Source: Telmatospirillum sp.
Lineage (GTDB): Bacteria > Pseudomonadota > Alphaproteobacteria > CACIAM-22H2
Assembly: GCA_020248985.1 (NCBI GenBank)
Contig: JADCGL010000013.1
Coordinates: forward strand, 1 to 64,000
DNA length: 64,000 bases
Reading direction: 5' to 3'
The position numbers were made by a program, and so were the translations under genes. Shown here in pieces: positions 42,711 to 61,555 of this stretch. Numbering within the stretch: position 1 is the stretch's first letter; each line of letters begins with the position of its first letter. A model generated the notes under the pieces. The model did not search any database and was not told the origin of the DNA. It worked only from the letters and a program-made list of their open reading frames with translations.

Positions 42711-42752
42711 TTGACCGGGCTCCGTCGGCATGTATTATGTAAGCGGTTTCAT
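42711..42752 (+). promoter_or_regulatory. Promoter and LacI-type operator (site A) of the Ssu-type importer operon
   Basis: TTGACC (42711-42716), 16 bases, then TATTAT (42733-42738) give a good sigma70-type promoter. The operator ATGTAAGCGGTTTCAT (42737-42752) overlaps the end of the -10, and shares its first 14 bases with the site at 49519. Binding there would block RNA polymerase. Confidence 0.7.
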
Positions 42753-42775
42753 AGAAACGCTTGGGAGGGCGCCGC

Positions 42776-43552
42776 TTGCGTAAGCGCCAATTTCTGGACG
42801 CGGTCGGCCCGCTTTTAGCCCTCGCTGTGCTTTTTGCAGGCTGGGAAGCCGCGGTCGTACTGTTCGGCGTCTCCGAGATTATGCTGCCGAAGCCGAGCCG
42901 CATCTTCGTCGAGATTCTTGATCGGGCGCCGATGCTCGCCCTGCATGCGGCTTCGACGGTCACGATCATTCTTTCCGGCTTCATGATGTCGGTTGCCGTC
43001 GCCATTCCGCTCGCGTTGGCGATCTCGTTCATTCCGATCGTGCGCCGGGTCGTCTACCCGATCGTCGTCTTTTCGCAGCTCATCCCGAAAATCGCGATCG
43101 CACCGCTTTTCATCATCTGGTTCGGATTCGGTGTGTTGCCGAAGGTACTGATCACCTTTCTGATCTCGTTCTTCCCCATCCTTATCCAGGCGATCGTAGG
43201 CTTTACCTCGATCCGGCCGGAGCCGATCCGCGTTGCGCGATCGATGGGTGCAGGGGCGTTCGACATGTTTTTGCGCATCCGGCTCCCGCATGCACTGCCC
43301 AATCTTTTTGCCGGCCTTAAAATGTCGATGGCCGCCGCCGCGATCGGCGCCATCGTCAGCGAGTTCATCGCGTCCAGTCGCGGGCTCGGCTATCTGGTGC
43401 TCGTCGCCAATGGCGAGATGAACTCGCCGCTCGCCTTCGCGGGCATGATGCTGCTCAGCCTGATCGGCATCGTCCTGTATTTCGCGGTCGAACTGATTCA
43501 GCGCGTCGCAACGCCCTGGGACATCGCACAACGGCGATCAACGCCGAACTGA
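42776..43552 (+). CDS. ABC importer permease, SsuC/TauC type
   Basis: A 258-residue inner-membrane permease of the nitrate/sulfonate/taurine family. About six spans and the coupling segment RVARSMGAGAFDMFLRIRLPHALP near residue 152 are seen. The start is TTG 42776, 7 bases after GGGAGG; no ATG fits the family N-terminus. It opens an operon running through binding protein, ATPase, dehydratase and oxidoreductase, behind operator site A. In this context the ligand is more probably a sugar acid or small carboxylate than a sulfonate. Confidence 0.88.
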   Translation: MRKRQFLDAVGPLLALAVLFAGWEAAVVLFGVSEIMLPKPSRIFVEILDRAPMLALHAASTVTIILSGFMMSVAVAIPLALAISFIPIVRRVVYPIVVFSQLIPKIAIAPLFIIWFGFGVLPKVLITFLISFFPILIQAIVGFTSIRPEPIRVARSMGAGAFDMFLRIRLPHALPNLFAGLKMSMAAAAIGAIVSEFIASSRGLGYLVLVANGEMNSPLAFAGMMLLSLIGIVLYFAVELIQRVATPWDIAQRRSTPN

Positions 43553-43575
43553 AACCGACTTTTGGAGGAACCAAG

Positions 43576-44547
43576 ATGATCAAACGCCGCACATTCCTTG
43601 CTTCAGCCGCCGCGACTTTGGCGGCCCCCGCCATCGCGCAGGCCCCGGACCGCGTCTCGTTTCGATTCAATTGGTCGTGGATCGGCAACTATTCGCCGCC
43701 GATCCTGGGGCTCCAGCGCGGCTACTACCGCGATGTCGGCATCGACCTTCGCCCCGACCAGGGCAAGGGCTCGGGCGTGACCGTGCGCCAGGTCGGATCG
43801 AAAGGCGACATGTTCGCGTGGGCCGATACCAGCGCGCTTCTGTTGGCCGCAGCACAGGGCGTTCCGGTGAAGCAGATCATGACGATGGCGATCAGCACGC
43901 TCGCTGTCGTGTGGATCGAAGGCCGCACGAAGTTCGAAACCGCGCGCGACGTAGTCGGCAAGAAAGTGTGCGGCACGGCTGGCGACGGTGCGACGCAGCT
44001 CTGGCCGGCCGTGCTGGCGGCAAACGGCATCAAGTCGACCGACTACGAGATGTTCAATGTCGACAGCACGGCAGGCGTTGCCGCCCTTCGCGAAGGGCGC
44101 TGCGACATACTGCTGGGGAGTGCGGCCGATCAGCCCGTGTCGTTGCAGAATGCGGGGTTTGCGGCGAAGTACAAAACCTACCGGGATCTTGGCGTGCCCA
44201 CGCTCGGCTCGGGCATTTCGGCGCATCCCGATCTCATCCGCGACAATCCGGGCCTTGTGCGCCGTTTCGTGCAGGCAACGCAACGCTCCTGGCAAGCGGC
44301 CATCGACGACCCGGAAGCGTCGGTGCAAGCGCTCGTCAAGCATGCCGAAACGCCGCTCGACCCGAAAGTCGTGCGCGGCAATCTTGCCGTTTTCACGACG
44401 CTGCTTACGGGCACCAAGCCGCTTGGCCTCACGGATCCGGCGGCGATGGAGAAGAACATCGCCCTTTTGAAGGAATATACGGGCTTCAAGACCGATCTGC
44501 CCGCGACCCATTTCTACACCAACGACTTCGTCGGGCAGTCGGCCTGA
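43576..44547 (+). CDS. ABC importer substrate-binding protein, SsuA/NMT1 type
   Basis: A 323-residue periplasmic binding protein. The N-terminus MIKRRTFLASAAATLAAPAIAQA has a twin-arginine RRTFL motif and an AQA cleavage site, so export may be by Tat. The mature part has the family layout (FNWSWIGNYSPPILGLQRGYY, then DVVGKKVCGTAGDGATQLW). It lies between the SsuC-type permease and the ATPase with short gaps. Confidence 0.88.
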   Translation: MIKRRTFLASAAATLAAPAIAQAPDRVSFRFNWSWIGNYSPPILGLQRGYYRDVGIDLRPDQGKGSGVTVRQVGSKGDMFAWADTSALLLAAAQGVPVKQIMTMAISTLAVVWIEGRTKFETARDVVGKKVCGTAGDGATQLWPAVLAANGIKSTDYEMFNVDSTAGVAALREGRCDILLGSAADQPVSLQNAGFAAKYKTYRDLGVPTLGSGISAHPDLIRDNPGLVRRFVQATQRSWQAAIDDPEASVQALVKHAETPLDPKVVRGNLAVFTTLLTGTKPLGLTDPAAMEKNIALLKEYTGFKTDLPATHFYTNDFVGQSA

Positions 44548-44548
44548 C

Positions 44549-45343
44549 ATGGACGCGACGGCGGCGGTGCCCAGCGACGCGATCGTCTTCGACGGCCTGC
44601 GCAAGACCTACGAGGCCCTCGAAGGATCGATCGAGGCGCTGGGCCCGCTCTCGTTCGGCATCAAAAAGGGCGAGTTCGTCTCGGTCCTGGGGCCGAGCGG
44701 CTGCGGCAAGAGCACGCTGATGCTCGTCGCCGCCGGGCTCGACGACGCGACGGCGGGTGCCGTGATCATCGACGGCCGCCCGATCAAGCAGGCCTTCACC
44801 GATCTCGGCATCGTCTTCCAGGACCACGCCCTGCTGGAGTGGCGCACGATCCTCCAGAACGTGATGCTGCATTCCGATCTGCGCAAAATTCCAGCAAAAG
44901 AGTTGCTGCCGCGGGCGATGGATCTGCTCAAGAAGGTAGGGCTCGAAGGCTTCGAAAATCGCTATCCGTTCGAACTCTCCGGCGGGATGCGCCAGCGTGC
45001 GGCGATCTGCCGCGCCCTCGTCCACGCGCCGCCGTTCCTCTTCTTCGACGAGCCGTTCGGCGCGCTCGATGCGCTGACGCGCGAGCAGATGCGCGTCGAT
45101 CTCGAAAAGCTCTGGCTCGACCGTCGGCAGACCGTCTTGTTCATCACGCACGGTATTGCCGAGGCGGTAGCTCTTTCCGATCGTGTTGTGGTGATGACGT
45201 CGCGGCCGGGGCGCGTCGAGCGGATCATCGACATCGATTTGCCGCGCCCGCGTAGCAGCGCCGTTCTCGCGTCGCCCGAATTCGTGGGCTATTGCGCGAC
45301 AATCAAAGACATCTTCAGCGCGACCGGCATCCTCAAGGATTGA
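44549..45343 (+). CDS. ABC importer ATPase, SsuB/TauB type
   Basis: A 264-residue ATPase with Walker A GPSGCGKST (about 49-57), Q-loop VFQDHALLEWRT, signature ELSGGMRQR and Walker B LFFDEPFGALDALTR. The ALLEWRT segment is typical of nitrate/sulfonate-type ATPases. It starts one base after the binding-protein stop and is followed after 27 bases by the dehydratase. Confidence 0.92.
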   Translation: MDATAAVPSDAIVFDGLRKTYEALEGSIEALGPLSFGIKKGEFVSVLGPSGCGKSTLMLVAAGLDDATAGAVIIDGRPIKQAFTDLGIVFQDHALLEWRTILQNVMLHSDLRKIPAKELLPRAMDLLKKVGLEGFENRYPFELSGGMRQRAAICRALVHAPPFLFFDEPFGALDALTREQMRVDLEKLWLDRRQTVLFITHGIAEAVALSDRVVVMTSRPGRVERIIDIDLPRPRSSAVLASPEFVGYCATIKDIFSATGILKD

Positions 45344-45370: not shown

Positions 45371-47089
45371 ATGAAGGGCATGAAAAAGGGTTTGGCGCAG
45401 TACGGCGATGCGGGCTTCTCGCTGTTCCTGCGCAAGGCGTTCATCAAGGCGATGGGCTATTCGGACGACGCGCTCGATCGCCCGATCATCGGCATCACCG
45501 ATACCTATTCGGCCTACAATGCGTGCCACCGCAACGTCCCCGAACTGATCGACGCGATCAAGCGCGGCGTCATGCTTGCGGGCGGCTTGCCGATCGAGTT
45601 TCCGATCATCTCGATCCACGAGGCCTTCTCGCATCCCACGAGCATGTTCCTGCGCAATTTGATGGCGATCGCGGCCGAAGAGATGGTGCGCGCCCAGCCG
45701 ATGGATGCCGTCGTGATGATCGGGGGGTGCGACAAGACGGTGCCGGCCTTGCTGATGGCGGCCGCCAGCGCCGACGTGCCCGCGATCCTGACCGTGACGG
45801 GCCCGATGATCACCGGCAGCCACAAAGGCGAGCGCCTCGGTGCCTGCACCGACTGCCGCCGCCTGTGGGGCAAGCACCGCGCCGGTGCGATCGACGCGGC
45901 CGAGATCGACGAAATCAACGAACAACTCGCACCCGGCCCCGGCACCTGCATGGTCATGGGCACGGCGAGCACGATGGCGCTGTGCGCCGAAGCGATGGGC
46001 ATGATGCTGCCGGGCGGGGCGTGCATTCCGGCCGTTCATGCCGACCGTCTGCGCCACGCCGAGGCGACGGGCGCGCGTGCCGTCGCAATGGCAAAAGAAG
46101 ATTTGCGTCCGTCGCGCATCATGACGCCGCCTGCGCTCAACAACGCGCTGCGCGTGCTGCAGGCCATCGGCGGCTCGACGAACGGCCTTGTCCATCTGGC
46201 GGCGGTTGCCGGGCGGCTCGGCATCGACATCGACTACGCCGCGTTCGACCGGATGGGCGTCGAGACGCCGGTGCTGGTCGATCTGAAGCCCTCCGGCCAG
46301 CATTATATGGAGGATCTCCACAAGGCGGGCGGGCTTGGCCCGATCCTGCGCGAGATCCGCGACCAGTTGGACCTCGATTGCCTGACTGTGACCGGCGGCA
46401 CGCTCGGTTCGACGATCCCGCCGGTTGCGACCTGGCAGCAGGATGTCGTGCGCACCGCTGCGAACCCGATCCACAAGGGCGGCGGACTTCGCATGCTCTA
46501 CGGCAACCTGGCGCCGAACGGTGCGGTCATCAAACAAGCGGCGGCGACCCAAAGACTCCTCAAGCATACGGGCCGCGCCGTCGTGTTCGAATCGCTCGCC
46601 GACCTTGCAGCACGGATCGACAGTCCCGATCTCGACGTGACAGCCGACGATGTTCTGGTACTCAAGAACGCTGGCCCCAAAGGCGCGCCGGGCATGCCGG
46701 AGGCGGGCTATCTGCCGATTCCGAAGAAACTCGCTGCGGCCGGCGTCACCGATATGGTCCGCATATCCGACGCGCGCATGAGCGGAACCGCGTTCGGCAC
46801 GATCGTGCTCCATGTGAGCCCGGAATGTGCGGCCGGCGGGCCGCTGGCCTTGGTCCGGAACGGCGACCGGATATCGCTCGACGTGGCGGCCGGCAAGATC
46901 GAGCTCCACGTGGACGAGGCCGAACTCGTGCGGCGTCGGCGCGATTGGGCGCCGCCGGCGCATCCCGAGCGCGGCTACTACAAGCTCTATTTCGACGAGG
47001 TTCTGCAGGCCGAATACGGCTGCGACTTCGATTTTCTGCGCAAGGTTCCGCTCGGCAAAAGCGGGAACCGGGAAGCATCGGGTACATAG
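45371..47089 (+). CDS. IlvD/Edd-family dehydratase, third paralogue
   Basis: A 572-residue Fe-S dehydratase. Cluster cysteines lie in TDTYSAYNACHRN (about 54), IGGCDKTVPA (about 121) and GTCMVMGTAST (about 193); GDRISLDV and ISDARMSGTAFGT close the family pattern. It differs from the two other dehydratases of the window in the N-terminal KGLAQYGDAGFSLFLRKAF segment, which is typical of uncharacterised sugar-acid dehydratases rather than of valine/isoleucine biosynthesis. It lies in the operon controlled by operator site A, which suggests that the imported ligand is an aldonate. Confidence 0.85.
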   Translation: MKGMKKGLAQYGDAGFSLFLRKAFIKAMGYSDDALDRPIIGITDTYSAYNACHRNVPELIDAIKRGVMLAGGLPIEFPIISIHEAFSHPTSMFLRNLMAIAAEEMVRAQPMDAVVMIGGCDKTVPALLMAAASADVPAILTVTGPMITGSHKGERLGACTDCRRLWGKHRAGAIDAAEIDEINEQLAPGPGTCMVMGTASTMALCAEAMGMMLPGGACIPAVHADRLRHAEATGARAVAMAKEDLRPSRIMTPPALNNALRVLQAIGGSTNGLVHLAAVAGRLGIDIDYAAFDRMGVETPVLVDLKPSGQHYMEDLHKAGGLGPILREIRDQLDLDCLTVTGGTLGSTIPPVATWQQDVVRTAANPIHKGGGLRMLYGNLAPNGAVIKQAAATQRLLKHTGRAVVFESLADLAARIDSPDLDVTADDVLVLKNAGPKGAPGMPEAGYLPIPKKLAAAGVTDMVRISDARMSGTAFGTIVLHVSPECAAGGPLALVRNGDRISLDVAAGKIELHVDEAELVRRRRDWAPPAHPERGYYKLYFDEVLQAEYGCDFDFLRKVPLGKSGNREASGT

Positions 47090-47102: not shown

Positions 47103-48176
47103 GTGAAAAAACTGAAAGTGGCGATCGTCGGGTGCGGTTGGGTTGCGGGGAACCAATTCGAAAACGGGTTCGCGCAATTGCGCGATCTCTTCGATGTCGT
47201 GGCCTGCTGCGAGATCGACGAAGCGCGCCTCGCGGCGTTTGCGGCAAAATACGGAGTAGCGAAAACAGTGTCGCGTTATGCCGACCTGCTCGACATGGCC
47301 GACATCGACGTCGTCAGTATCTGCACGCCGCCGTCCGAGCACCATGCGATGGTCCGGGCGGCACTTGCGGCGGGAAAGCACGCGCTCTGCGAGAAGCCGT
47401 TTACGAGCTCGCTCGAATTGATGGACGACATCATCGCCGCCCAGAAATCTTCGTCCGCGCGCGTGATGCCGATCTTCCAGTACAGATACGGGCCCGGCTT
47501 CGAACGCGCGCGTGCACTCGTGCGCTCGGGGCTCGGCGGCAAGCTCTACGTCTCGGCGATCGAAACGGCGTGGCTGCGCGGTGCCGTCTACTATCAGGTC
47601 CCGTGGCGGGGCAAATTCGCGACCGAACTGGGCGGCGTTCTCGTCACGCAGTCGATCCACATACACGACTTGTTCATGTGCCTGGCCGGGCCCGTCGCCA
47701 AAGTCGCGGCGTTCAAGGCGACGCGCGTGAACCCCATCGAGGTCGAGGATTGCGCCGTCGCGAGCCTGCAGATGTCCGACGGCTCGCTCGCTTCGCTGAC
47801 GGCGACCCTGGGGTCGGCGCGGCCATCGACCCGGATGCGGTTCTGTTTCGAGAATTTCACGATCGAACGCCACTGCTTCGACCTCGACGCGCCCAAGCCG
47901 GCGCTGGAGCCCTGGACCGTCGTGCCGATGCGTCCGGAACTCCAGCGCGATATTGACGCGGCGACGGCTGGCCTGCAGCCGGGCGATCTGTTCTTTGCCG
48001 GCCAGTTTCGGTCGTTCCACCGGTCGGTAGTGGAGCAAGCGCCGTTCGACATCACGCTCGAGGATTCGCGCCGGTCGCTGGAGCTGATCACCGCGATCTA
48101 TTCGGCGGCGGAGACGGGCACGGTCGAGAGCCTGCCGATCGACCGGCGGCATGCACGCTATAAGGGTTGGTCTTGA
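47103..48176 (+). CDS. Gfo/Idh/MocA-family oxidoreductase
   Basis: A 357-residue NAD(P)-dependent dehydrogenase. The Rossmann motif is VGCGWVAGNQ (about 8-17), the EKP motif is ALCEKPF (about 95-101), and the C-terminal substrate domain contains TQSIHIHDLFMCL near residue 187 with His residues in the usual catalytic place. The start is GTG 47103, 7 bases after GGCGGGG. It follows the dehydratase by 13 bases. It probably oxidises a sugar or cyclitol hydroxyl. Confidence 0.88.
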   Translation: MKKLKVAIVGCGWVAGNQFENGFAQLRDLFDVVACCEIDEARLAAFAAKYGVAKTVSRYADLLDMADIDVVSICTPPSEHHAMVRAALAAGKHALCEKPFTSSLELMDDIIAAQKSSSARVMPIFQYRYGPGFERARALVRSGLGGKLYVSAIETAWLRGAVYYQVPWRGKFATELGGVLVTQSIHIHDLFMCLAGPVAKVAAFKATRVNPIEVEDCAVASLQMSDGSLASLTATLGSARPSTRMRFCFENFTIERHCFDLDAPKPALEPWTVVPMRPELQRDIDAATAGLQPGDLFFAGQFRSFHRSVVEQAPFDITLEDSRRSLELITAIYSAAETGTVESLPIDRRHARYKGWS

Positions 48177-48274: not shown

Positions 48275-49375
48275 GTGGCCAAGAAGTCGAAGTCGGCGGT
48301 AAATACGGCGCGCGCCAAGCCGATCAAGCGCCGTATCCGCAAGCAGAGCCCGTCGTCGGCAAAGCTCGAGGATGTCGCGCGCGCCGCCGGCGTATCGACC
48401 GCGACCGCATCGCGCGTTCTGAACACGCCGGACAAAGTCCAGCCCGCCACGCGCGAACGCGTCGAAGCCGCAATCCGGGCGTTGAACTGGATCCCGCACG
48501 GGGCCGCGAAAGCGCTTGCCTCGCTGCGGACGCGGACGGTGGGCGCGCTTATTCCCACGCTCGGCCACCAAGCGATCATGGCGATGGTGGAGGCGATCCA
48601 GCAGGATCTGAGCGACGCCGGCTATACGCTGTTTCTCGGCAAGCCGGAACTCCAGCCGGATCGAACGCTGCGGCAGGCATCCAAGATGCTGGAAAACGGC
48701 ATCGAGTGCCTGATCCTGATGGGTGAGGAGCAGCCGCCGGGCCTCATCGACTTCCTCGAGAGCCGCAACGTGTTCTACGTGACCGCCTATACGAGCGGGC
48801 GCTACGGCGGACGAAATTGCATCGGCTTTGACAATTTCGTCGAGATGTCGCGGCTCACCGAATATCTGCTGAGCCTCGGCCATCGCGACTTTGCGATCGT
48901 GTCGCGCAGCTACGAGGGCAATGATCGCATTCGCCAACGCATCGAAGCCGTCAAAGCGGTGCTCGCCAATGTCGGACTTGCCGTGCGGCCGCAGCACGAG
49001 ATCATCGTCGAGAAATATCTGATTGGCGCAGGTCGCGAAGGGATGCAGCGGTTGCTGAAATCCGAGGGCGTACGTCCAACCGCGGTCATATGTGCCAACG
49101 ACTATCTCGCCGCCGGCGCCGTCATCGAGGCCAAGGCCGCCGGCCTTTCGGTACCGCGTGACATTAGCGTGACGGGTTTTGACGATCTCGAAATGTCGGC
49201 GCAGATCGAACCGCCGCTGACGACCGTGCGCGTGCCGGCGATCGCCATCGGCCATGCGATCGCGCGCTTCATCGTTGGCACGCTCGAAAAACAGCCCGAT
49301 GCGCGTCTGCCCGAGCGCTTCAATGCGGAGCTGATGATTCGCGGCAGTACGGCGGCCGCACCCGCAAAGGCCTGA
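48275..49375 (+). CDS. LacI-family transcriptional regulator of the 42.7-64 kb region
   Basis: A 366-residue regulator with a basic 30-residue leader, an HTH and hinge at about 31-90 (KLEDVARAAGVSTATASRVLNTPDKVQ, then HGAAKALASLRTRT) and a sensor domain (GALIPTLGHQAIMAMVEAIQQ to VTGFDDLEMSAQIEPPLTTVRVP). The start is GTG 48275. It is encoded between the Ssu-type operon and the TRAP operon. Seven copies of a LacI-type pseudo-palindrome lie in nearby intergenic regions, so it is the natural regulator for them. One copy begins on the last base of its own stop codon. Confidence 0.9.
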   Translation: MAKKSKSAVNTARAKPIKRRIRKQSPSSAKLEDVARAAGVSTATASRVLNTPDKVQPATRERVEAAIRALNWIPHGAAKALASLRTRTVGALIPTLGHQAIMAMVEAIQQDLSDAGYTLFLGKPELQPDRTLRQASKMLENGIECLILMGEEQPPGLIDFLESRNVFYVTAYTSGRYGGRNCIGFDNFVEMSRLTEYLLSLGHRDFAIVSRSYEGNDRIRQRIEAVKAVLANVGLAVRPQHEIIVEKYLIGAGREGMQRLLKSEGVRPTAVICANDYLAAGAVIEAKAAGLSVPRDISVTGFDDLEMSAQIEPPLTTVRVPAIAIGHAIARFIVGTLEKQPDARLPERFNAELMIRGSTAAAPAKA

Positions 49376-49390
49376 CTTAATCGCTTACAT
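49375..49390 (-). promoter_or_regulatory. LacI-type operator (site B2) at the end of the regulator gene
   Basis: On the minus strand ATGTAAGCGATTAAGT, sharing the ATGTAAGCG core with sites A, B, E and F. It lies 144 bp centre to centre from site B, a distance suited to repression by DNA looping. Confidence 0.55.
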
Positions 49391-49491: not shown

Positions 49492-49534
49492 TTGACAGCT
49501 TCGGCTTCGATACGCACGATGTAAGCGGTTTCTC
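49492..49534 (+). promoter_or_regulatory. Promoter and LacI-type operator (site B) of the TRAP operon
   Basis: TTGACA (49492-49497) is followed 17 bases later by a weak CACGAT -10. The operator ATGTAAGCGGTTTCTC (49519-49534) overlaps it and is identical to site A over 14 bases. The transcript leader to the dctP start is about 125 bases and includes a small TCCGC/GCGGA hairpin near 49602-49616. Confidence 0.65.
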
Positions 49535-49650: not shown

Positions 49651-50652
49651 ATGAACTCTCGTCGTAAATTTCTGGCCGGTGGCGCCGCAGCGGTCGGCGC
49701 CATGACCATCGTTGGCCGCGCATCGGCGCAGGCCGTGTCGGTTCGGGTCGGCAACGTCTATCCCGCTACGCACACGATTCCGGTCGCCACGGGTCGCTTC
49801 AAGCAGCTCGCCGAGCAGAAATCGGGCGGCAGATTGTCGGTAACCATCTTCAACAACAGCGAACTCGGTTCGGAACGCGAGATGGCCGAGATGGTGCGCG
49901 GCGGCTCGCTCGAGATGGTGCTGAGCGGTCTTCCGGGTACGGGCGCCTACGCGCCCGAGATCGAGGTGATGGAGGCATTCTACGTCTATCGCAATGTCGA
50001 GGACCTGAAGCTCATCACCGACGCCATTTTCGGCGACCTCCAGGGGTTCGTCCAGCCCAAGGGCTTCCAACTCGTCGGGCTCATGTACCAAGGGCCGCGC
50101 AACGTGCTCTCGAACCGGTCGCTCAAGACGCTGGCGGATTTCCGGGGCCTTCGGCTCCGCATCCCTAACACGCCGCTCTTCGTCGGCCTCGCGCGCAGCT
50201 GGGGTGCCGTGCCGACGGCGATCGCGCTCGCCGAGGTCTATACCTCGTTCGAGTCGGGCGTCATCAACGCCATGGAAGCGACCCATGAGACGATGGTGAC
50301 GAGCAATTTCCACGAAAAGGCCAAGTTCCTGCTGACCACGCGGCACAACCACTATCCCCAGCCGATCGTCGCCAACAAGGCTTGGTTCGACCGCCTGCCC
50401 AAGGATCTGCAGGATATCATCACGTCTTCGGCGCAGGAAGCCGGTGCCTATCAGCTGACGCTGCACAAGGCCGCCGACGACCAGGCGCTTGCGACGATGC
50501 GGGCGGCGGGCGTGACGATCACGGAACTGACGGATGCCGAAATCCAGACGTTCCGTGCGCCGCTGATCGAAATGAACCGGCAGCATTTCACCAATCGCGG
50601 GCCGAAGGTGGTCGAGGTCTACGAAAAGATGCTGAAGCTCAGCAAGTATTGA
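49651..50652 (+). CDS. dctP: TRAP transporter substrate-binding protein
   Basis: A 333-residue DctP-type periplasmic protein that binds an organic acid for a sodium-driven TRAP carrier. The leader MNSRRKFLAGGAAAVG has a classical twin-arginine SRRKFL motif and a cleavage site after ASA (about 27). The family core SLEMVLSGLPGTGAYAPEIEV, LADFRGLRLRIPNTPLF (with the carboxylate-binding Arg) and TSFESGVINAMEA is clear. ATG 49651 follows AGGGAAGGA. It is the first of dctPQM and then enoyl-CoA hydratase. Confidence 0.93.
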   Translation: MNSRRKFLAGGAAAVGAMTIVGRASAQAVSVRVGNVYPATHTIPVATGRFKQLAEQKSGGRLSVTIFNNSELGSEREMAEMVRGGSLEMVLSGLPGTGAYAPEIEVMEAFYVYRNVEDLKLITDAIFGDLQGFVQPKGFQLVGLMYQGPRNVLSNRSLKTLADFRGLRLRIPNTPLFVGLARSWGAVPTAIALAEVYTSFESGVINAMEATHETMVTSNFHEKAKFLLTTRHNHYPQPIVANKAWFDRLPKDLQDIITSSAQEAGAYQLTLHKAADDQALATMRAAGVTITELTDAEIQTFRAPLIEMNRQHFTNRGPKVVEVYEKMLKLSKY

Positions 50653-50679
50653 TCCGACCGTCCGTCGCCGAGGGAAGCC

Positions 50680-51177
50680 ATGTTCGATCGTCTCTACGTC
50701 AAAGTCATCGAGATCCTTGTCTTCGTCGCGCTCGCGGCGATGGTCGGGATCGGTTTTCTCTCGACGGCGCTGCGTTCCGTCCCCGGTTGGGGCGGTCTCT
50801 ACTGGGCCGAGGAGATCATCCGCTATGCATGCATCTGGATGGTCTTTCTCTGCTCGGGTCTCACTATTCGCTACGGGATCCATTTTCGGGTCGATCTCGT
50901 GCTCGCCAGGTTGCCGCGGCGGGCCGGGATCGCACTCGCTCTCTTCGCCATCGCCGTCATGATTTGGTTCGAGGCCGTTCTGATTTGGTTCGGATCGAAG
51001 GTGACGATCATGAACATGGAACAGCAATCGACCTCGCTCGAATTCCCGATGGGATACGTCTATGTCGCCATCCCCATCGGCGGCGCGCTGATGCTCTTCG
51101 AGACGTTGCGGCTCGCCTGGACTATCTGGAACCGCGGCGAACCGATTCCGGCTAGCGAACAGCCATTGGTTGATTGA
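50680..51177 (+). CDS. dctQ: TRAP transporter small membrane subunit
   Basis: A 165-residue protein with four hydrophobic spans, the DctQ fold. WAEEIIRYACIWMVFLCSGLTIRYGIHFRVD near residue 46 is the family signature. It begins 28 bases after the dctP stop and ends 13 bases before dctM. Confidence 0.92.
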   Translation: MFDRLYVKVIEILVFVALAAMVGIGFLSTALRSVPGWGGLYWAEEIIRYACIWMVFLCSGLTIRYGIHFRVDLVLARLPRRAGIALALFAIAVMIWFEAVLIWFGSKVTIMNMEQQSTSLEFPMGYVYVAIPIGGALMLFETLRLAWTIWNRGEPIPASEQPLVD

Positions 51178-51189
51178 AGGAGTTCCATT

Positions 51190-52476: not shown

Positions 52477-52493
52477 CCCCGGGGTCCGTGAGC

Positions 52494-53289: not shown

Positions 53290-54474
53290 TCAGGCGGCGG
53301 GCTTGGTTCCGTCGCCGACGACGCCGCGCTTGATGAGGTCGTCGATCTTTTCCTTCGAGTAGCCGAGTTCGCTCAAGGCCTCGCGCGTATTCTCGCCGAT
53401 ACCGTAGGCGCGGATGCGCAGCGGCAGTGTTGCGTCGTCGTACTTGACCGGATGGTTGACCAGAACCGCCTTCTCGCCGCGGATATCGATCTCGGTGAAC
53501 GCGTCGACCGCTTTGGCTTGCGGGTCGTCGGCGACGTCGTCGAAATCGTAGATCTTGCTGTACCAGAGTCCGGCCGCGTCGAACGCCTTTGCGACGTCGG
53601 CGTATTTTTTCGTCGCGACGACTTTGGCGAAAACCTGCGCGTAGCGGTCGCGCTCCTTGAAGCGGTCGATATGCGCGATCTCGCGCAACTCGTCGCTGTC
53701 GAGCGCGTCGGCGACCTTCATCGGGTCGTTGACGGACATCGCGATCGCAGCGTCGAGCAGTTTGAACTGGCCGTAGGGCGCTTGGTGGTACCAAGTCGCC
53801 AAATGGGCATCGCGTTTGAGGATCTTGCGATCCGGGCGCGTCGACAGATAAACCGTCAGCGGTTCGGTCTGCAGATCGAGCCCCGCCGTGTAGAGCGAGC
53901 TTTCGACCTTCGTGCCTTTTCCCGTCGTGAGTTTCTTGACGAAGGCCGCGATGATCCCCATGGCGAGCACGGCACCGCCATGTTGGTCGATCACCGCCGA
54001 GCCGACGGCGCGCGGTTCGTCGTTGCCGGTCGCAGCCATGAGGCCGGTGCGCGCCTGGACGATGATGTCCTGGCTCGCCTTCGAGATCATCGGACCCTTG
54101 CTGCCCCAGCCGGTGCCGCTCGCATAGATGATGTCCGGCTTTACCTTCTTGAGTTCTTCGTAGCCGAGGCCGAGGCGGTCCATGACGCCCGCCCGGTAGT
54201 TCTCGACCACGACGTCGGACTTCGCGACCATCTCTTTGATGATCGCGAGGCCTTCCGGACTTTTGAGATTCACCGCGAACGTCTTTTTGTTGCGGAAGGC
54301 GCAAAGATAGAGGCCCGCCACACCGCCGATATGCGGCCCCGCCCAGCGGCGTGCGCGTTCTCCTTCGATCGGTTCGACCTTCGTCACGTCCGCGCCGAGG
54401 TCGCCCAGATACTGCGTGCAGGCGGGTCCCTGGAGCACGTGGCAGAAGCTTAGGACTTTCATTTTCTCGAGCAT
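53290..54474 (-). CDS. Family III CoA-transferase (CaiB/BaiF)-like
   Basis: A 394-residue protein of the family that moves CoA between carboxylic acids. GPACTQYLGDLGADVTKVE (about 16-34), NLKSPEG, VVVENYRAGVMDRLGLGYE (about 88-106) and IIYASGTGWG are standard. The catalytic aspartate normally found in a VDVSxxDA motif corresponds to T196 in KVESSLYTAGLD; a nearby D200 is the only acid. So either the Asp is shifted or the enzyme works differently. The start is ATG 54474, 37 bases after the aldehyde dehydrogenase stop, probably one transcript with it. Confidence 0.85.
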   Translation of the reverse strand: MLEKMKVLSFCHVLQGPACTQYLGDLGADVTKVEPIEGERARRWAGPHIGGVAGLYLCAFRNKKTFAVNLKSPEGLAIIKEMVAKSDVVVENYRAGVMDRLGLGYEELKKVKPDIIYASGTGWGSKGPMISKASQDIIVQARTGLMAATGNDEPRAVGSAVIDQHGGAVLAMGIIAAFVKKLTTGKGTKVESSLYTAGLDLQTEPLTVYLSTRPDRKILKRDAHLATWYHQAPYGQFKLLDAAIAMSVNDPMKVADALDSDELREIAHIDRFKERDRYAQVFAKVVATKKYADVAKAFDAAGLWYSKIYDFDDVADDPQAKAVDAFTEIDIRGEKAVLVNHPVKYDDATLPLRIRAYGIGENTREALSELGYSKEKIDDLIKRGVVGDGTKPAA

Positions 54475-54511
54475 GTCGGTCTCCGGTGTCGTGCTGCGCG
54501 TCGGAACGGGT

Positions 54512-55993
54512 TCAATTGAGCTGAAGGTGGATCGTCTTGAGTTCGGTGAATTCCTCGACGGCGAAGCGGCCACGCTCGTGGCCGCTGCCGCTTTCCTTGT
54601 GGCCCGTGAGCGGAAGCTCCGGCGTGCCGGCCATGTAAGTATTGACCTCGATCGTGCCCGCCTTGAGCCCGCGCCCGAAGCGGAACGCCTTGTCGAGATC
54701 GCGAGTCCACACGCCGGCCGACAAGCCGTAGGGCGTGCCGTTTGCGATCGCAATCGCCTGGTCGACCGTTTCGAATTCGATCGCCGACAGGACGGGCCCG
54801 AAGATTTCCTCCTGGGCGATCGACATCTTCGGATCGACCGCGGTGAAGAGACCCGGCTGCACGTAATTCTTGCGATCAGGACCGTCCGACGGCCGGCTCC
54901 AATAAGTCGCACCGTCGCGCTGGCCGGCCCCGATGTAGCTGTTCACGCGATCGAACTGTGCCGTACTGATAAGCGGCCCCATCTCGGTCGCCGGATCGAG
55001 TGTGTCGCCAACGCGAACGGCACGCATGCCGGCTTTGACGCGTTCGAGGAATTCGCGCGCGATCGAGCGCTCGACCAGGAGACGCGATCCGCTCACGCAA
55101 GCCTGTCCGGCATTGCGCGTGGCGCCGATCACGACTTTCTGCGCTGCGGTTTCAAGATCGGCGTCGGCGCACACGATATGCGCGGACTTGCCGCCGAGTT
55201 CGAGCGACAGCTTCTTGAGGGCCGCCCCGGCCTTGCCGGCGATTTCCTTGCCGACCCGGGTCGATCCGGTGAAGGAGATCATGTCGACGCGCGGATCGGC
55301 GCACAAAGCGGCGCCGACATCGTGGCCGAAGCCGGGCAGAACGCTGACCACGCCCGGCGGCACGCCCGCCTCGAGCAGAATGCGGCCGAGAAGAAGCGTG
55401 GTACCGGACGTGAGTTCGCTGGGTTTGATGACCGCACAGCAGCCGACCGCCAAAGCGAAGGGCAGCTTCTGGCTGATGATGAGCAGCGGATAGTTCCACG
55501 GCGTGATCATCGCCACGACGCCGTAGGGCTCGCGCAGGATCAGGCCCATCTGGCCGCCGCCGAGATTGTCGTAGGTGTCGCCATAGGTGTGGCGGGCGAG
55601 GGTGGCTGCGTATTCCCAATGCGCAATGGCGCCGCGGATTTCGCGCTCCGCGTTGGTGACGGGCTTGCCGCATTCGAGGCACTCGATGCGTCGGAATTCG
55701 TCGAGGTTGTCTTCGATGCGGCGCGCGACATCGAGCAGGATCTTGGCGCGCTGTGCGCCGGACAATCCGCTCCAGACGCGTTTCTCGGCTGCGGCTGCTG
55801 CGGCCGCGACGGCCTCACCGACGTCGGCAGTCGTCGCGCGGGGATAGCGGCTGACCGCGATGTCGAATGTGGGATGGCGCCGTCCGATAACCTCTCGGCT
55901 TCGCGTCTCGACAAGATTGCCGCCGACGATTGCCGGCAACTCGATCGGCGTTTCGGGCAGTTTCACGGGCCAGGCAGTCGAGGGCGTAGACAT
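54512..55993 (-). CDS. NAD(P)-dependent aldehyde dehydrogenase
   Basis: A 493-residue aldehyde dehydrogenase. The catalytic Cys is C299 in NAGQACVSGSRL, the general base E265 in LELGGKSAH, and the oxyanion Asn N167 in TPWNYPL; FTGSTRVGKE binds the nucleotide. It resembles betaine/glycolaldehyde or alpha-ketoglutarate-semialdehyde dehydrogenases, and no closer assignment is safe. Operator site C lies 27 bases upstream of the start, so it and the CoA-transferase belong to the LacI regulon. Confidence 0.9.
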   Translation of the reverse strand: MSTPSTAWPVKLPETPIELPAIVGGNLVETRSREVIGRRHPTFDIAVSRYPRATTADVGEAVAAAAAAAEKRVWSGLSGAQRAKILLDVARRIEDNLDEFRRIECLECGKPVTNAEREIRGAIAHWEYAATLARHTYGDTYDNLGGGQMGLILREPYGVVAMITPWNYPLLIISQKLPFALAVGCCAVIKPSELTSGTTLLLGRILLEAGVPPGVVSVLPGFGHDVGAALCADPRVDMISFTGSTRVGKEIAGKAGAALKKLSLELGGKSAHIVCADADLETAAQKVVIGATRNAGQACVSGSRLLVERSIAREFLERVKAGMRAVRVGDTLDPATEMGPLISTAQFDRVNSYIGAGQRDGATYWSRPSDGPDRKNYVQPGLFTAVDPKMSIAQEEIFGPVLSAIEFETVDQAIAIANGTPYGLSAGVWTRDLDKAFRFGRGLKAGTIEVNTYMAGTPELPLTGHKESGSGHERGRFAVEEFTELKTIHLQLN

Positions 55994-56019: not shown

Positions 56020-56035
56020 ATGTAACCGCTTTCTT
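56020..56035 (-). promoter_or_regulatory. LacI-type operator (site C) ahead of the aldehyde dehydrogenase
   Basis: On the plus strand ATGTAACCGCTTTCTT; on the minus strand AAGAAAGCGGTTACAT. It matches the site-A consensus except for a C in place of the first G. It lies between the GMC stop and the aldehyde dehydrogenase start. Confidence 0.6.
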
Positions 56036-56073: not shown

Positions 56074-57801
56074 CTAGCGACCGGCGCGGATGAGATCGGC
56101 GACGCGCTCGGCAACCATGATCGTCGGCAGGTTGATGTTGGCGCGCGGGATGGCGGGGAAGATCGACGCATCGACGACGCGCAAGCCGTCGATGCCGTGG
56201 ACGCGACCGGACGAATCCGTGACAGCCATGGGATCGTCGGCACGGCCCATGCGGCACGAACACGATGCGTGCCACACGCCGACGGCCGCCTTGCGCACGA
56301 ACGCTTCGAGTTTGTCGTCGTCGGCGAGCAGCACGTCGAGCGGCTCGGATTCGACGACGAAGTTTTTGAACATGAACCGACGCAGCGGGGCAGGGCCGTC
56401 GAGGATCGTGGCGAGGATGCGCGTGAGAATGCGATTCTTCGTGTTGACCTCGCTGACCTGGCGGATCTTCTCGCTGAAGCTCGCCGCGAACGGATCGGTC
56501 ACGGCCGCGCGCATCTCGGGCGCGTCGAAAACGGCGCGCAGCCGCCGCATCGCCGCCATCAGGCGCACGAGGTCGCGACGGTCATGCAGCAGCTTGAAAT
56601 CGACTTTGGGCTGGTCGCGCCAATCGGCCGAATTGAGGCGAACTTCGCCGGCCTCGGAGAACGTCTTGTTGACCCATGTCGTGACCGAACAAATCTGCTC
56701 GCCGACATGATGCCATGCGGCCTTCGTCGAAACCGACACGGCCATGTCCGACACCGGCATGCCCGGAATGTCGGACGTGAAGCGTAGCCCGACGAGAAGA
56801 TGGCGCCGCGTTTTCTCCTGCAATCGCGCATGCGGATGGATGAAGCCGGCGAGTGCGACCGACGGATGGTCCATCAGCCGCTGGCCGACGCCCGCAAGCG
56901 CTTGCCGCAGTTCGATCCCGTGCGTGTGCAGCTCGCCGACGGGACCAATTCCCGCCCGCATCAGCATCGGCGGCGAGTAGATGGCCCCACACGAAAGGAT
57001 GACTTCGCGCGCGCGGAACTCGCGCAGTTCGCCGTCGACCAAAGCGCGCACGCCGACGCAGCGGCGCCCCTCGAAGATGAGATCGCGAACATGGCTATCG
57101 GTCTGGATCGTAAGGTTCGCGCGCGCGCGTACCGTGCTCGTCAGGTAGGCGATTGCCGTCGGCACGCGCCGGTCGTAGAGGTTTGAGATCGTGAAGGGGT
57201 GGTATCCGTCGATGAATTCGCCGTTCTGGTCGGCGAGGTATCTGAAGCCCATCCGCTCGAAGCCGGCCGCGATCGCCTTGGCTTGTCCCGCCCACATATC
57301 CGGAAAGATGCGGCGGATCGGCAGCGGACCATCCTTGCCGTGGAGCGGGCCGTCGAAGTCGTTGTCGCGTTCGAGCTTGCGGAAATAGGGAAGGACCGCG
57401 TTCCAGTTCCAGCCCTCGGCCCCGAGCGTTTCCCACTCGTCGTAGTCGACGGGACCACCGCGGTTGGCGAGCTGCCCGTTGATCGAAGAGCCGCCGCCCA
57501 GGACACGCGCTTGTTCGTATTTGCGCAGGCGCGGCCGCGGCGCGTCCGGCTGGTTGTGCGGAATCGTCTCCGTCGTAACGCGCAGGTCATTCCAGAGGAA
57601 TCGGCGGTCGAGGAAGGCGTAAGCGGCGAAGCTATCGAGAATGCGCTCCGGTGTGGCCCCGTCCTTGATGTTGGGACCGGCTTCGAACAGGAGCACCGAG
57701 GTTGCACTGCGCTCGGTCAATCGGCTCGCGAGAACCGAACCGGCGGATCCACCGCCGACGATGATGAAATCGTGTGACGTCATTGCGCTTTGAGTATCCA
57801 T
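56074..57801 (-). CDS. GMC-family FAD oxidoreductase (choline/alcohol dehydrogenase type)
   Basis: A 575-residue flavoenzyme that oxidises an alcohol to an aldehyde. The dinucleotide motif is IIVGGGSAGSVLASRL (about 11-26), GGSSINGQLANRG is GMC signature 1, and the C-terminal active-site His and Asn are in WHASCSCRMG and ANINLPTIMVAE. ATG 57801 is preferred; an in-frame ATG at 57783 lacks a ribosome site. It ends in a separate small unit upstream of the aldehyde dehydrogenase, with operator site D 48 bases ahead. Together the two could turn an alcohol into an acid. Confidence 0.9.
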   Translation of the reverse strand: MDTQSAMTSHDFIIVGGGSAGSVLASRLTERSATSVLLFEAGPNIKDGATPERILDSFAAYAFLDRRFLWNDLRVTTETIPHNQPDAPRPRLRKYEQARVLGGGSSINGQLANRGGPVDYDEWETLGAEGWNWNAVLPYFRKLERDNDFDGPLHGKDGPLPIRRIFPDMWAGQAKAIAAGFERMGFRYLADQNGEFIDGYHPFTISNLYDRRVPTAIAYLTSTVRARANLTIQTDSHVRDLIFEGRRCVGVRALVDGELREFRAREVILSCGAIYSPPMLMRAGIGPVGELHTHGIELRQALAGVGQRLMDHPSVALAGFIHPHARLQEKTRRHLLVGLRFTSDIPGMPVSDMAVSVSTKAAWHHVGEQICSVTTWVNKTFSEAGEVRLNSADWRDQPKVDFKLLHDRRDLVRLMAAMRRLRAVFDAPEMRAAVTDPFAASFSEKIRQVSEVNTKNRILTRILATILDGPAPLRRFMFKNFVVESEPLDVLLADDDKLEAFVRKAAVGVWHASCSCRMGRADDPMAVTDSSGRVHGIDGLRVVDASIFPAIPRANINLPTIMVAERVADLIRAGR

Positions 57802-57848: not shown

Positions 57849-57864
57849 TTATAAACGCTTTCAT
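57849..57864 (-). promoter_or_regulatory. LacI-type operator (site D) ahead of the GMC gene
   Basis: On the minus strand ATGAAAGCGTTTATAA, with the ATGAAAGCG half matching the inverted half of sites A and C. It is 48 bases upstream of the GMC start and 130 bp from site E, which serves the divergent gene. Confidence 0.5.
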
Positions 57865-57974: not shown

Positions 57975-58010
57975 TTGACATCTTGGCAAGATTGATGTAA
58001 GCGCTTAACC
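57975..58010 (+). promoter_or_regulatory. Promoter and LacI-type operator (site E) of the DapA-family gene
   Basis: TTGACA (57975-57980) is followed by operator ATGTAAGCGCTTAACC (57995-58010), whose centre TAAGCGCTTA is perfectly palindromic. The expected -10 falls inside the operator, so repressor binding would exclude RNA polymerase. Confidence 0.65.
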
Positions 58011-58038: not shown

Positions 58039-58998
58039 ATGGCGTTCGACCTCACGCAGGGCGTTATTGCGGCTCCCGTCACCCCGTTCAACCCCGACGA
58101 ATCGGTCGATTGGGCCACGCTCGACCGCTACATGGCCGAGGTCGCCGCGGGCGGCCCTCAGGGCATTGCCATGAACATGGCGGCAAGCGAAGGCGGATCG
58201 CTGACAATCGACGAGCAACTCGACGTCATTCGCCGCACCAAGAAAGCGGTTGGCGGCGCATGCGCGGTCCTTTCCGGCGTGGTTGCCGCAAGCACGACGA
58301 AGGCGGCCGAACTCGGCAAGCGTCTGGTCGATGCGGGTGCCGATGGCCTTGTGATCTTCCCGCCGCTGCCGACTTTCATTTCCAAGCCGCTGCCGGTCGA
58401 TGTCGTCGTCGATTTCCACAAGGCGATCGCCGATGCCGCGGGCGTGCCGATCATCGCGTTCCACACGCCGTTCGTCGACTATCCGCACGGCACGATCAAA
58501 GGCCTCGCCAAGCTGAAATCCGTCGTGGCGCTGAAAGACGCCGCCTTCAATGTCGACCGCACGGTCGAGATCGTCGAAGAAGCGGAAGACACGCACATCA
58601 AGATTCTCACCGGCAACGACACCTTCATTCTCGAAGCGATGCTGATGGGCTGCTCGGGCGCGCTCATCGGTTTTGCTGGCACGGCAACGGCCAAGATCGT
58701 CGAGATGCACAATCTCGCCAAGGCCGGCAAGATCACCGAGGCCTACCAGATTTGGAATGCGATCGGGCCGCTCGCGCGCATCTGCTGGCGCGCCCCGCTC
58801 CGCGACTATCGCGTGCGCATGAAGTACGCGCTGGTGCGTCAGGGCGTCATTCCGCACGCGACCGCGCGTTTGCCGCAGCCGGCGATCACGGACCAGGACA
58901 AGGCCGATCTCGATCGCTGCTTCGATCGTTTCGGCCTCGATGCGCCGGCCTATCTCCCGGCAGGCCGCAAGTTCCAGCGTTCGCGCGCGGCCGAGTAG
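58039..58998 (+). CDS. DapA/NAL-superfamily lyase or dehydratase
   Basis: A 319-residue class I aldolase-fold protein with Schiff-base K166 in VVALKDAAF. The DapA-type YNxP tyrosine motif is replaced by FHTP (141-144), so it is not dihydrodipicolinate synthase. The GIAMNMAASEGGSLT loop replaces the usual GTTGE keto-acid-binding motif, another departure. It is expected to act on a 2-keto-3-deoxy acid made by the dehydratase at 45371. The ADH gene follows after 12 bases. Confidence 0.83.
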   Translation: MAFDLTQGVIAAPVTPFNPDESVDWATLDRYMAEVAAGGPQGIAMNMAASEGGSLTIDEQLDVIRRTKKAVGGACAVLSGVVAASTTKAAELGKRLVDAGADGLVIFPPLPTFISKPLPVDVVVDFHKAIADAAGVPIIAFHTPFVDYPHGTIKGLAKLKSVVALKDAAFNVDRTVEIVEEAEDTHIKILTGNDTFILEAMLMGCSGALIGFAGTATAKIVEMHNLAKAGKITEAYQIWNAIGPLARICWRAPLRDYRVRMKYALVRQGVIPHATARLPQPAITDQDKADLDRCFDRFGLDAPAYLPAGRKFQRSRAAE

Positions 58999-59010
58999 TT
59001 CCGCTTCGCC

Positions 59011-60039
59011 ATGCTGGCGCTTCGCAAGCTCGGTGCTGCACCCGGTGTTGCCCTCGTCGATGTCGTCGAGCCCGAGATATCGGGTTCGGACGATGTGAAG
59101 ATCGAGGTGGCGGCCGCGGGCATCTGCGGCTCCGATCTGCATATCGATCACTGGTCGCCGGGCTACCACCATCTCGGGCCGTCGCTGCCCTTGACGCTTG
59201 GGCACGAGTTTGTCGGCCGCGTCGTCGATCGGGGCTCGTCTGCACAAAGCCCGGCTATCGGCAGCCGCGTGACGGTCGTGCCGGCAACGACCTGCGGCCA
59301 TTGCGCCGCATGTGTCGCGGCCGATTTCGATGCGTGCCGCGAGCGGCGCGGGATCGGTGTGATGCGCAATGGCGGGTTCGCACGTTATGTCGTCGTGCCC
59401 GCTCGCAATTGCATTCCGATTCCGGATGCGCTGCCCGACGAGGTCGCCGCACTCACCGAGCCCGTCGCGATCGGCGTCAACGCTGTCATGACGGCAGCGC
59501 TGAAAGCAGGCGAAAAGGTCGTTGTATTTGGGCCGGGAACGATCGGTCAGGCAATCGCCGTCGAAGCCCGTCGCGCCGGTGCGGACGTGACCGTGGTCGG
59601 GTTCCGCGACGAAAGCCGCATCGCCGTGCTGCGGGCGCTCGGCTTCAGCCAACTTGTCGATCTCGACAATTCGGCACAGGCCGCGACGCTTTCAGCTCTC
59701 GCAGACTCTATCGACTGCGTCTTCGAAGCGTCGGGTGCCGCGTCCGCGTTCAAAGCGGCCTTGGGTCTGCTGCGTCCAAAGGGACGGCTTGTCGTCGTCG
59801 GCATCCACTCAGCTCCCGGCGAGATCGATCTTGTCCGCCTCGTACGCAAGCGCCTTCAAGTGCTGGGTTCATTCAGTTCGCCCGGGACGATTTGGCCCGA
59901 TGTCGTCAAGCGCTTGGCGGCGGACCCGATGATGTATGCGAAGTTCGTGACCCACCGCTATTCGCTTGAAAACATCCTCGCGGGCTTCGATGTGGGGCAC
60001 CGTCGTGCTGCGTCGAAGGTCATCGTTCGGCCGACCTGA
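59011..60039 (+). CDS. Zinc-dependent medium-chain alcohol/polyol dehydrogenase
   Basis: A 342-residue NAD(P) dehydrogenase. Catalytic zinc ligands are C39 (GICGSD), H65 and E66 (GHE); the structural zinc site has C95, C98, C101 and C109. The nucleotide motif is VVFGPGTIGQAIAVEA (about 171-186). It resembles sorbitol, threonine and galactonate dehydrogenases. It is the second gene of the site-E unit and converges with the MmgE/PrpD gene 21 bases downstream. Confidence 0.9.
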   Translation: MLALRKLGAAPGVALVDVVEPEISGSDDVKIEVAAAGICGSDLHIDHWSPGYHHLGPSLPLTLGHEFVGRVVDRGSSAQSPAIGSRVTVVPATTCGHCAACVAADFDACRERRGIGVMRNGGFARYVVVPARNCIPIPDALPDEVAALTEPVAIGVNAVMTAALKAGEKVVVFGPGTIGQAIAVEARRAGADVTVVGFRDESRIAVLRALGFSQLVDLDNSAQAATLSALADSIDCVFEASGAASAFKAALGLLRPKGRLVVVGIHSAPGEIDLVRLVRKRLQVLGSFSSPGTIWPDVVKRLAADPMMYAKFVTHRYSLENILAGFDVGHRRAASKVIVRPT

Positions 60040-60060
60040 AGGGCGCCGCATCGGACGTTG

Positions 60061-61452
60061 TCAGAGGCGCGGAACCGTCAGGGCCACGAGGCGGCGTATG
60101 TCGACGACCTCTTCGATCCGATCGACCATGTCGATGAGTTCGCGCGCTGCATCGGCCGCAAGCACGGTTGTCAGCAGATCGAGCGCCTTCTCCTGGACCT
60201 GTGCCTTCGACATCGGGTTCTCCGCGCGGCCCAGCACATTGCGGTCCTGATCCGCGACGAACGTGCCGCGGCTGGTTTCGACTTCGACTTGCGCGTCGAA
60301 GCGGGCGAGATGCGGCTTCGGCCCGAGAAAGTCGATGCGCTGGCCCACGGCAACGACGGCCAGATCCTGCATTCTTTCGGCGTCGTGCGCCGCGTCGAAT
60401 GTCAGTCTGCCGTCGATCAGCGTCACGGCCATGCAATAGCGCAGATTGACGTCCGGCATCTGGGTCTTGTCGCCGATGACCTTGTACCAATCTTCGTTGT
60501 AGTAGATGCGCACGCGCTTGGTTTCTCCGGCACCCACGCCGTGCTTGCCGATGATCTTCTCGAGGGCCGCGAGCGGTGCCGCGATCGGGTAGCCGACCGG
60601 ATAGCATTTGATGTCGGTCTCGAGGATTTCGTGGCGCACGCCGAGTGCGTCCGTAAGGCAAGCAGGCCGCGGATGGGAAGTGATGGCGTCGAGCATGTTG
60701 CGGTCGCTCATCTCCAGCACGTCGCCGCCGCCCGAGAAACCGGCGCGCACGAGGGCCGCGCATTTGGCGCCGTTCATTGCCGGCATGCCCGCGAAGACGT
60801 AGCTCTTGAGCGTATGGCGCGCGTCGCGCCGCCAAGTCGTGAGGCCGGACGCTTCTTGTGCGAGATAGTTGAGCAGGATCTTGAAGCGCTCGGCATCGAA
60901 GCCCATCAGCGACCCGGCAGCGTAGCCCGCACCGAACAACGGGCCGTAGGCGTGGCTCGACATGGAAGATTGTTTGAACGTCATTCCGGCGCCGAAGGCC
61001 TTGGCGAAGCGGATCGTCGTCTCGTACCCGAGGATTGTCGCTCGCAGCAAGCGCGCACCGTTCGCACCCAACGCTTCGGCGACCGATATCGCCGACGGAA
61101 CCACGCCGCAGCCCGGATGCGTCTGGCTTTCTTCGTGCGAATCGTCCGACTCGTCGGCATGTGCCGCCATGCCGTTGGCGAGTACGGCTTCCGAAAGTGG
61201 TGCGCGCAGTGCCGTGCCAAGGATTGTTGCATCCGGACGGCCGTCCAGCGACGCGGCATAACGCTGGCCGGCAATGCCCGCCTCGAGGGCGGCACCCGAG
61301 ACGATCGCGGCCAGCGTGTCGAGCAGTTGCAGCTTGCCCTTTTCGAGCACGTCGCGCGGATAGTCGGTGGCCGCGGCGGCCGCAGCGTGGGCGGCGACAA
61401 TGCCGCCATAATCGTGGCTCCGATCGATATTGCCCGGTTCCATGCGCATCAT
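60061..61452 (-). CDS. MmgE/PrpD-family protein
   Basis: A 463-residue protein of the family that includes 2-methylcitrate dehydratase and cis-aconitate decarboxylase, which eliminate water or CO2 from tricarboxylates without a metal cluster. Family pieces are GTALRAPLSEAVLANGMAAHADESDDSH (about 75-102), HPGCGVVPSA and the KCYPVGYP segment near residue 265. ATG 61452 is chosen by family length; the frame is open to 61530, where an alternative ATG exists. It is divergent from the Gfo/Idh gene and shares the region with operator site F. Confidence 0.85.
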   Translation of the reverse strand: MMRMEPGNIDRSHDYGGIVAAHAAAAAATDYPRDVLEKGKLQLLDTLAAIVSGAALEAGIAGQRYAASLDGRPDATILGTALRAPLSEAVLANGMAAHADESDDSHEESQTHPGCGVVPSAISVAEALGANGARLLRATILGYETTIRFAKAFGAGMTFKQSSMSSHAYGPLFGAGYAAGSLMGFDAERFKILLNYLAQEASGLTTWRRDARHTLKSYVFAGMPAMNGAKCAALVRAGFSGGGDVLEMSDRNMLDAITSHPRPACLTDALGVRHEILETDIKCYPVGYPIAAPLAALEKIIGKHGVGAGETKRVRIYYNEDWYKVIGDKTQMPDVNLRYCMAVTLIDGRLTFDAAHDAERMQDLAVVAVGQRIDFLGPKPHLARFDAQVEVETSRGTFVADQDRNVLGRAENPMSKAQVQEKALDLLTTVLAADAARELIDMVDRIEEVVDIRRLVALTVPRL

Positions 61453-61509
61453 CTCGCCGCGTATCGCGACGCTCCCACGCTTGTCTTTTTGCCTGCCGTC
61501 CGATGCCGG

Positions 61510-61555
61510 TTGACAGGTTGCCGCTTTCATTCATAGTTTATGAGAGCGCTTACAT
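61510..61555 (+). promoter_or_regulatory. Promoter and LacI-type operator (site F) between MmgE/PrpD and Gfo/Idh genes
   Basis: TTGACA (61510-61515) and TAGTTT (61534-61539, 18-base spacing) lie just before operator ATGAGAGCGCTTACAT (61540-61555), which read inversely is ATGTAAGCGCTCTCAT. It is 40 bases upstream of the Gfo/Idh start and could also control the divergent MmgE/PrpD gene. Confidence 0.65.

Follow-up and report, generated by a model that had tools for sequence, protein, structure and literature searches.

Seven LacI-type palindromes predicted to be the operators of a regulon for a sugar-acid-like compound in Telmatospirillum sp.

When near-identical palindromes recur between the genes of one locus, are they the operators of a single regulon, and if so, which regulator would read them and what would the genes be for? 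This question is raised by a locus of Telmatospirillum sp. (contig JADCGL010000013.1 of assembly GCA_020248985.1), examined here in a stretch of 64,000 nucleotides (hereafter the window), in which seven near-identical 16-bp palindromes with a central CG (consensus ATGTAAGCGCTTACAT) are found at 42,711–61,555. We put at about 0.9 the probability that a LacI-family repressor, encoded at 48275, has these palindromes as its operators and controls through them about 23 genes in seven units (Table 1). A preliminary description of this DNA had proposed LacI-type operators of one regulon, and each of the seven 16-mers it quoted is located exactly where it had placed them; its proposal survived chance models, a genome search, footprinting in three relatives and prediction in two other orders.

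Table 1. Predicted operators and genes of the regulon in the window. G019, G015 and G013 are relatives from the same order; scores are from the weight matrix described in the text.
Feature	Positions	Strand	Description	Promoter elements and conservation
Operator 1 (predicted)	42737..42752	+	ATGTAAGCGGTTTCAT; 25.3 bits; predicted to control ABC1-IlvD-Gfo1-LacI unit	TTGAC 26 bp upstream; site identical in G019, conserved in G015 and G013
ABC transporter 1	42761..45343	+	Permease 42761-43552, NMT1-type binding protein 43576-44547, ATPase 44549-45343; Pfam	Syntenic in G019, G013 and G015
IlvD/Edd-family sugar-acid dehydratase	45371..47089	+	Pfam and NCBIfam PRK06131, above cut-off	
Gfo/Idh/MocA oxidoreductase 1	47103..48176	+	Pfam; start assigned	
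LacI-family repressor (proposed regulator)	48275..49375	+	366 aa; Pfam LacI and Peripla_BP_3	
Operator 2 (predicted)	49375..49390	-	ATGTAAGCGATTAAGT on minus strand; 20.3 bits; predicted distal operator of TRAP unit	Half-site CGCTTACAT conserved in four genomes
Operator 3 (predicted)	49519..49534	+	ATGTAAGCGGTTTCTC; 20.2 bits; predicted to control DctPQM-ECH	TTGACA 27 bp upstream; site and its GCTTGAC box conserved in four genomes
TRAP transporter and enoyl-CoA hydratase (ECH)	49651..53279	+	DctP 49651-50652, DctQ 50680-51177, DctM 51190-52476, ECH 52494-53279; Pfam	Syntenic in three relatives
Aldehyde dehydrogenase (ALDH) and type III CoA-transferase	53290..55993	-	ALDH 54512-55993, CoA-transferase 53290-54474; Pfam	
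Operator 4 (predicted)	56020..56035	+	ATGTAACCGCTTTCTT; 23.1 bits; predicted to control minus-strand ALDH-CoA-transferase unit	TTGAC on minus strand; 15/16 bases invariant (three genomes)
GMC oxidoreductase	56074..57777	-	HMF oxidase is nearest relative with a solved structure; start set from G019 and G015 counterparts	
Operator 5 (predicted)	57849..57864	-	ATGAAAGCGTTTATAA on minus strand; 19.1 bits; predicted to control GMC (minus)	Counterparts 22.2 bits in G019, 19.8 bits in G015
Operator 6 (predicted)	57995..58010	+	ATGTAAGCGCTTAACC; 19.5 bits; predicted to control DHDPS-ZnADH	TTGACA 20 bp upstream; ATGTAAGCGCT and TTGACA conserved in three genomes
DHDPS-family lyase and zinc alcohol dehydrogenase (ZnADH)	58039..60039	+	Lyase 58039-58998, ZnADH 59011-60039; Pfam	
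MmgE/PrpD-family protein	60061..61530	-	Pfam	
Operator 7 (predicted)	61540..61555	+	ATGAGAGCGCTTACAT; 22.8 bits; between PrpD (minus) and Gfo2-ABC2-MLE unit (plus)	TTGACA 30 bp upstream; 14/16 bases invariant (three genomes)
Gfo/Idh/MocA oxidoreductase 2 and fused ABC permease	61595..64000	+	Oxidoreductase 61595-62479; Pfam	

A symmetric weight matrix built from the seven sites, a step proposed in the preliminary description, gives them the top scores in the window (19.1–25.3 bits vs 12.2 for the next best match), and Markov-1 simulations predict that 64 kb would contain 0.03 places scoring 19 bits or more. When each site is left out in turn the scores are 12.8–24.3, and the weakest site (57849) rests mainly on conservation because it falls to 12.8. 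One 9-mer had been said to occur five times in 19 kb, beyond chance, and indeed dinucleotide shuffles yield 0.19 expected occurrences and never five (0/100); the earlier estimate of 0.5, made under equal base use, was too high for GC-rich DNA. Across the 4.30-Mb genome the 9-mer occurs 14 times, including the five in this 19 kb. Rarity at the genome scale was assessed by searches with the consensus and with a degenerate pattern, ATGWRASCGNTTWH, that covers all seven sites by construction. Places with at most three mismatches to the consensus number seven in the 4.30-Mb genome, five of them in this block, one 57 bp upstream of another lacI gene (C20) and one inside a gene on C9. Matches of equal quality within random genes, which had been named beforehand as the outcome that would speak against a regulon, did not appear, the degenerate pattern having one other match in 4.3 Mb and its reversed control none. 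Promoter regions are AT-richer than genes and give more matches to AT-containing motifs, which is what a non-regulatory similarity, arising by chance or as a dispersed repeat, has in its favor, but almost no copies exist elsewhere in the 4.3 Mb, other promoters included.

The central CG is present in 7/7 sites, giving even palindromes of the LacI-family type, and the position left of the center is C in 98% of 66 half-sites from six genomes. The sites at 49375 and 57849 have one poor half each, and the former starts, as had been described, on the last base of the lacI stop codon, with one base in common. A weak extra match (10.5 bits; 8.9 bits for the G019 counterpart) lies at 61515-61530, 25 bp from operator 7 and overlapping the PrpD start codon, so that coding may explain its conservation. 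Spacing within paired operators is nearly equal within each genome, at 144 bp (49375/49519) and 146 bp (57849/57995) in the window and in G019, and at 107 bp (L088:9181/9288) and 104 bp (L088:17549/17653) in G015. These spacings are not consistently phased, and we make no claim of looping between paired operators.

With gene starts assigned, intergenic DNA makes up 5.4% of the segment and holds all seven sites. The earlier claim that every site is intergenic thus stands, given that we moved the GMC start from 57894 to 57777; the longer reading frame would enclose operator 5 and was rejected because its additional N-terminal part is frame-shifted in G019 and lacks conservation in G015. Five sites, rather than the four first counted, have a TTGAC 9 to 30 bp upstream, oriented toward the controlled gene. 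The majority of operators either overlap the -35/-10 region or come directly after it, an arrangement that suits repression, but some lie upstream of or inside the promoter spacer and not over the start, as might be expected if the 48275 protein owned the operators and worked by activation or jointly with a global regulator, its genes serving more than one pathway. No operator directly precedes lacI, which is separated from the gene before it in its unit by a 98-bp gap, and autoregulation would therefore depend on read-through from operator 1 across this gap. No Rfam match to an RNA element was found in 42–62 kb.

Comparison with relatives of the order indicates that the predicted operators are islands of conservation amid diverged intergenic DNA. 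Gene order in G019 (LacI ortholog 90% identical) matches that of the window, and none of the seven sites is missing. In G015 (78%) all seven sites are kept in a rearranged locus, and no unit is without an operator; the Gfo2 gene has been relocated there and is accompanied by an operator of its own. In G013 (91%) three sites are on a short contig and two more on other contigs. Over five intergenic regions, 67/111 operator bases are invariant vs 166/653 flanking bases (odds ratio 4.5); because two sites are misaligned in G015, the operator figure is an underestimate. The 16-mers with the strongest conservation either coincide with operators or overlap them. That flanks diverge while sites persist also argues against a chance or repeat origin.

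Other features of these genomes bear on individual genes. In G013 the IlvD/Edd gene is absent between the ABC ATPase gene and Gfo1 of an otherwise syntenic locus (L090, G013:C244, ~7930-7981), which may be either a real loss or an assembly artefact. Beside the regulon in G015 (C7) is a LacI paralog, 40% identical, with sites of a slightly different type (ATGTATCCGGTTACAT and TTGTAACCGGTTACAG; L087:4013, 5962). A one-mismatch match, ATGTTAGCGCTTACAT, occurs at G007:C167:3486-3501; the G007 genome has no close 48275 LacI ortholog.

Which LacI protein would bind these sites? The 48275 protein has an N-terminal LacI helix-turn-helix (HTH; PF00356, 67 bits) and a periplasmic-binding-protein-like core (PF13377, 104 bits), both above cut-off, and its orthologs have the recognition-helix string VSTATASRV in common. 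An ortholog is present in 4/23 genomes of the order, and sites with at most two mismatches occur in 4/4 of these vs 1/19 of the others. Because a regulator is linked to its targets, such co-occurrence alone cannot single out the 48275 protein; together with the distribution of two other LacI proteins, however, it argues against these two. The genome encodes nine LacI-type HTH proteins, and the sites might belong to another of them. Two are in the window, and the second, missed in the preliminary description, lies 12 kb upstream of the regulon (35175-36296, minus strand, recognition helix TTTMTVSNV). Its orthologs (67–68%) are in G011, G015 and G016, with none in G019 or G013. This distribution does not match that of the sites, which are present in G019 and G013 and, at up to two mismatches, absent from G011 and G016, and we rejected this protein as the regulator. 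The gene for the C20 LacI is preceded, at 57 bp, by a similar site, ATGTTAGCGCATACAT, but this site has T/A at positions 5 and 12, as none of the seven does, and the C20 ortholog is in the site-less G011 and was not found in the site-bearing G013 (84% complete); it was rejected as well. We consider it very improbable that the operators belong to either of these proteins. The operators are confined to co-functional units and conserved together with the 48275 regulator, and the presence and absence of orthologs and motif across the 23 genomes make its product, as first suggested, the best candidate.

We applied the matrix, trained on the window only, to homologous loci in two other alphaproteobacterial orders, represented by Devosia and Roseicitreum, which were found through genome and plasmid collections; class-wide and phylum-wide samples yielded no 48275 LacI ortholog besides the window's own. 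On plasmid pRA01 of Roseicitreum antarcticum (Rhodobacterales), a LacI 58.5% identical to the 48275 protein is surrounded by homologs of most regulon genes in a different order. This 41-kb island has four matches that reach 17 bits or more, and each falls between genes: a pair in the divergent CoA-transferase/DHDPS region, a single match upstream of IlvD and larB, and another between DctP and MLE. In 170 kb of the same plasmid no match reaches 17 bits, the best scoring 13.6. In Devosia enhydra (LacI 61%), matches lie upstream of IlvD, around a gene for an ABC binding protein and where MLE2 ends. The window's IlvD/Edd protein is 77% identical to its counterparts in Devosia and Roseicitreum. The motif is thus predicted beside homologous genes in other orders, and chance or a dispersed repeat is left with a negligible probability.

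The homologous operons of Devosia (L026:6008-7330) and Roseicitreum (L100:15983-17305) also encode a nickel-pincer (NPN) isomerase of NCBIfam group 22, barely recognised by Pfam; larB is its neighbor, and Roseicitreum additionally has LarC- and LarE-like genes. In this respect the pathway version of the window's genus differs, as none of its 11 genomes has a group 22 gene. No substrate for group 22 was found in PMC11770544.

The unit behind operator 7 continues beyond the window with a binding protein, an ATPase, two MR/MLE enzymes and an FMN dehydrogenase, in the same gene order as in G019, to ~69.8 kb of contig 5. The proposed extent of 20 kb was accordingly too small: the block measures 27 kb, reaching ~8 kb further, and the regulon would comprise about 23 genes in seven units from 42.76 to ~69.8 kb. 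The joining of three transporters and the enzymes into one regulon is supported, but to call them one pathway, as had been done, was an overstatement. In a survey of LacI regulons (Ravcheev et al. 2014, PMC4052901), the operators were palindromes of 16-22 bp centered on CG, 93% of regulons had at most 20 genes and 72% showed autoregulation, and a global regulon was one with more than 15 genes in at least seven operons. The present regulon resembles local catabolic regulons of the survey in its 16-bp CG-centered intergenic palindromes, in having the regulator gene inside it and in combining carbohydrate-type enzymes with transporters, but it is larger than most, and we found no match to a named regulon. 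It reaches the global threshold, which would again fit activation or a global regulator serving several pathways. Its genes nevertheless stay clustered across three orders, as suits one pathway, and together with the position of most operators this leads us to regard that possibility as unlikely.

Under the preferred reading, repression by the 48275 protein, dimers of the repressor would bind over or next to the -35/-10 region when no inducer is present and would block about 23 genes, namely those for two ABC transporters, a TRAP transporter and dehydratases, dehydrogenases, oxidases and aldolase/CoA enzymes for a sugar-acid-like compound. As the last gene of the first unit, lacI itself would also be repressed. 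The imported compound or an early intermediate would then bind the periplasmic-binding-protein-like domain and release the repressor. Binding, control by repression rather than activation, and such a ligand are most likely in view of how LacI-family proteins are known to behave.

The gluconate and idonate repressors GntR and IdnR are members of the LacI family. The NCBIfam model nearest to the 48275 protein is the P. aeruginosa-type GntR (NF052440), although its score of 204 bits is half the cut-off of 400, so that the protein falls outside this group. The nearest solved chain, 3h5o, is annotated as GntR, and sugar-acid enzymes are likewise among the targets. In contrast to GntR/IdnR systems, however, the targets include no gluconate kinase or gluconate permease.

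The presence of IlvD/Edd, MR/MLE, DHDPS-family, Gfo/Idh, GMC and ALDH enzymes points to a substrate that is sugar-acid-like, or to a sugar that is oxidised to a sugar acid. Of the models for sugar-acid enzymes that were applied, the general IlvD/Edd subfamily PRK06131 is the only one whose cut-off is reached; the model nearest to MR/MLE, talarate/galactarate dehydratase, scores below cut-off. Relatives with solved structures were too distant for the substrate to be named from the TRAP binding protein, the dehydratases or the GMC enzyme. With its IlvD/Edd, DHDPS-family, ALDH and MR/MLE enzymes and its TRAP binding protein of the organic-acid type, the locus is similar to non-phosphorylative pathways for sugar acids such as arabinonate and galactarate, but it has in addition a GMC oxidase, MmgE/PrpD, a CoA-transferase and an enoyl-CoA hydratase. 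Literature searches returned no paper describing this gene set.

As a gene switch the system is well supported and conventional for bacteria, and its interest lies in the undefined pathway. LacI, IlvD/Edd, Gfo/Idh, GMC oxidase, ALDH and MR/MLE are common to the three orders, while the transporters are exchanged. At slightly less than even odds, the regulon may mark a modular pathway, not described before, that Alphaproteobacteria use for a sugar acid or a related carbohydrate, with a core in three orders and the group 22 isomerase in two of the three lineages. The predicted operators group about 23 genes, three transporters among them, into one unit that would respond to a substrate, and this grouping does not depend on annotation. 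Learning from a growth or ligand screen what one repressor responds to would therefore give the substrate of the whole set. The core that extends across three orders also provides a definite set of genes in which to seek the function of nickel-pincer isomerase group 22.
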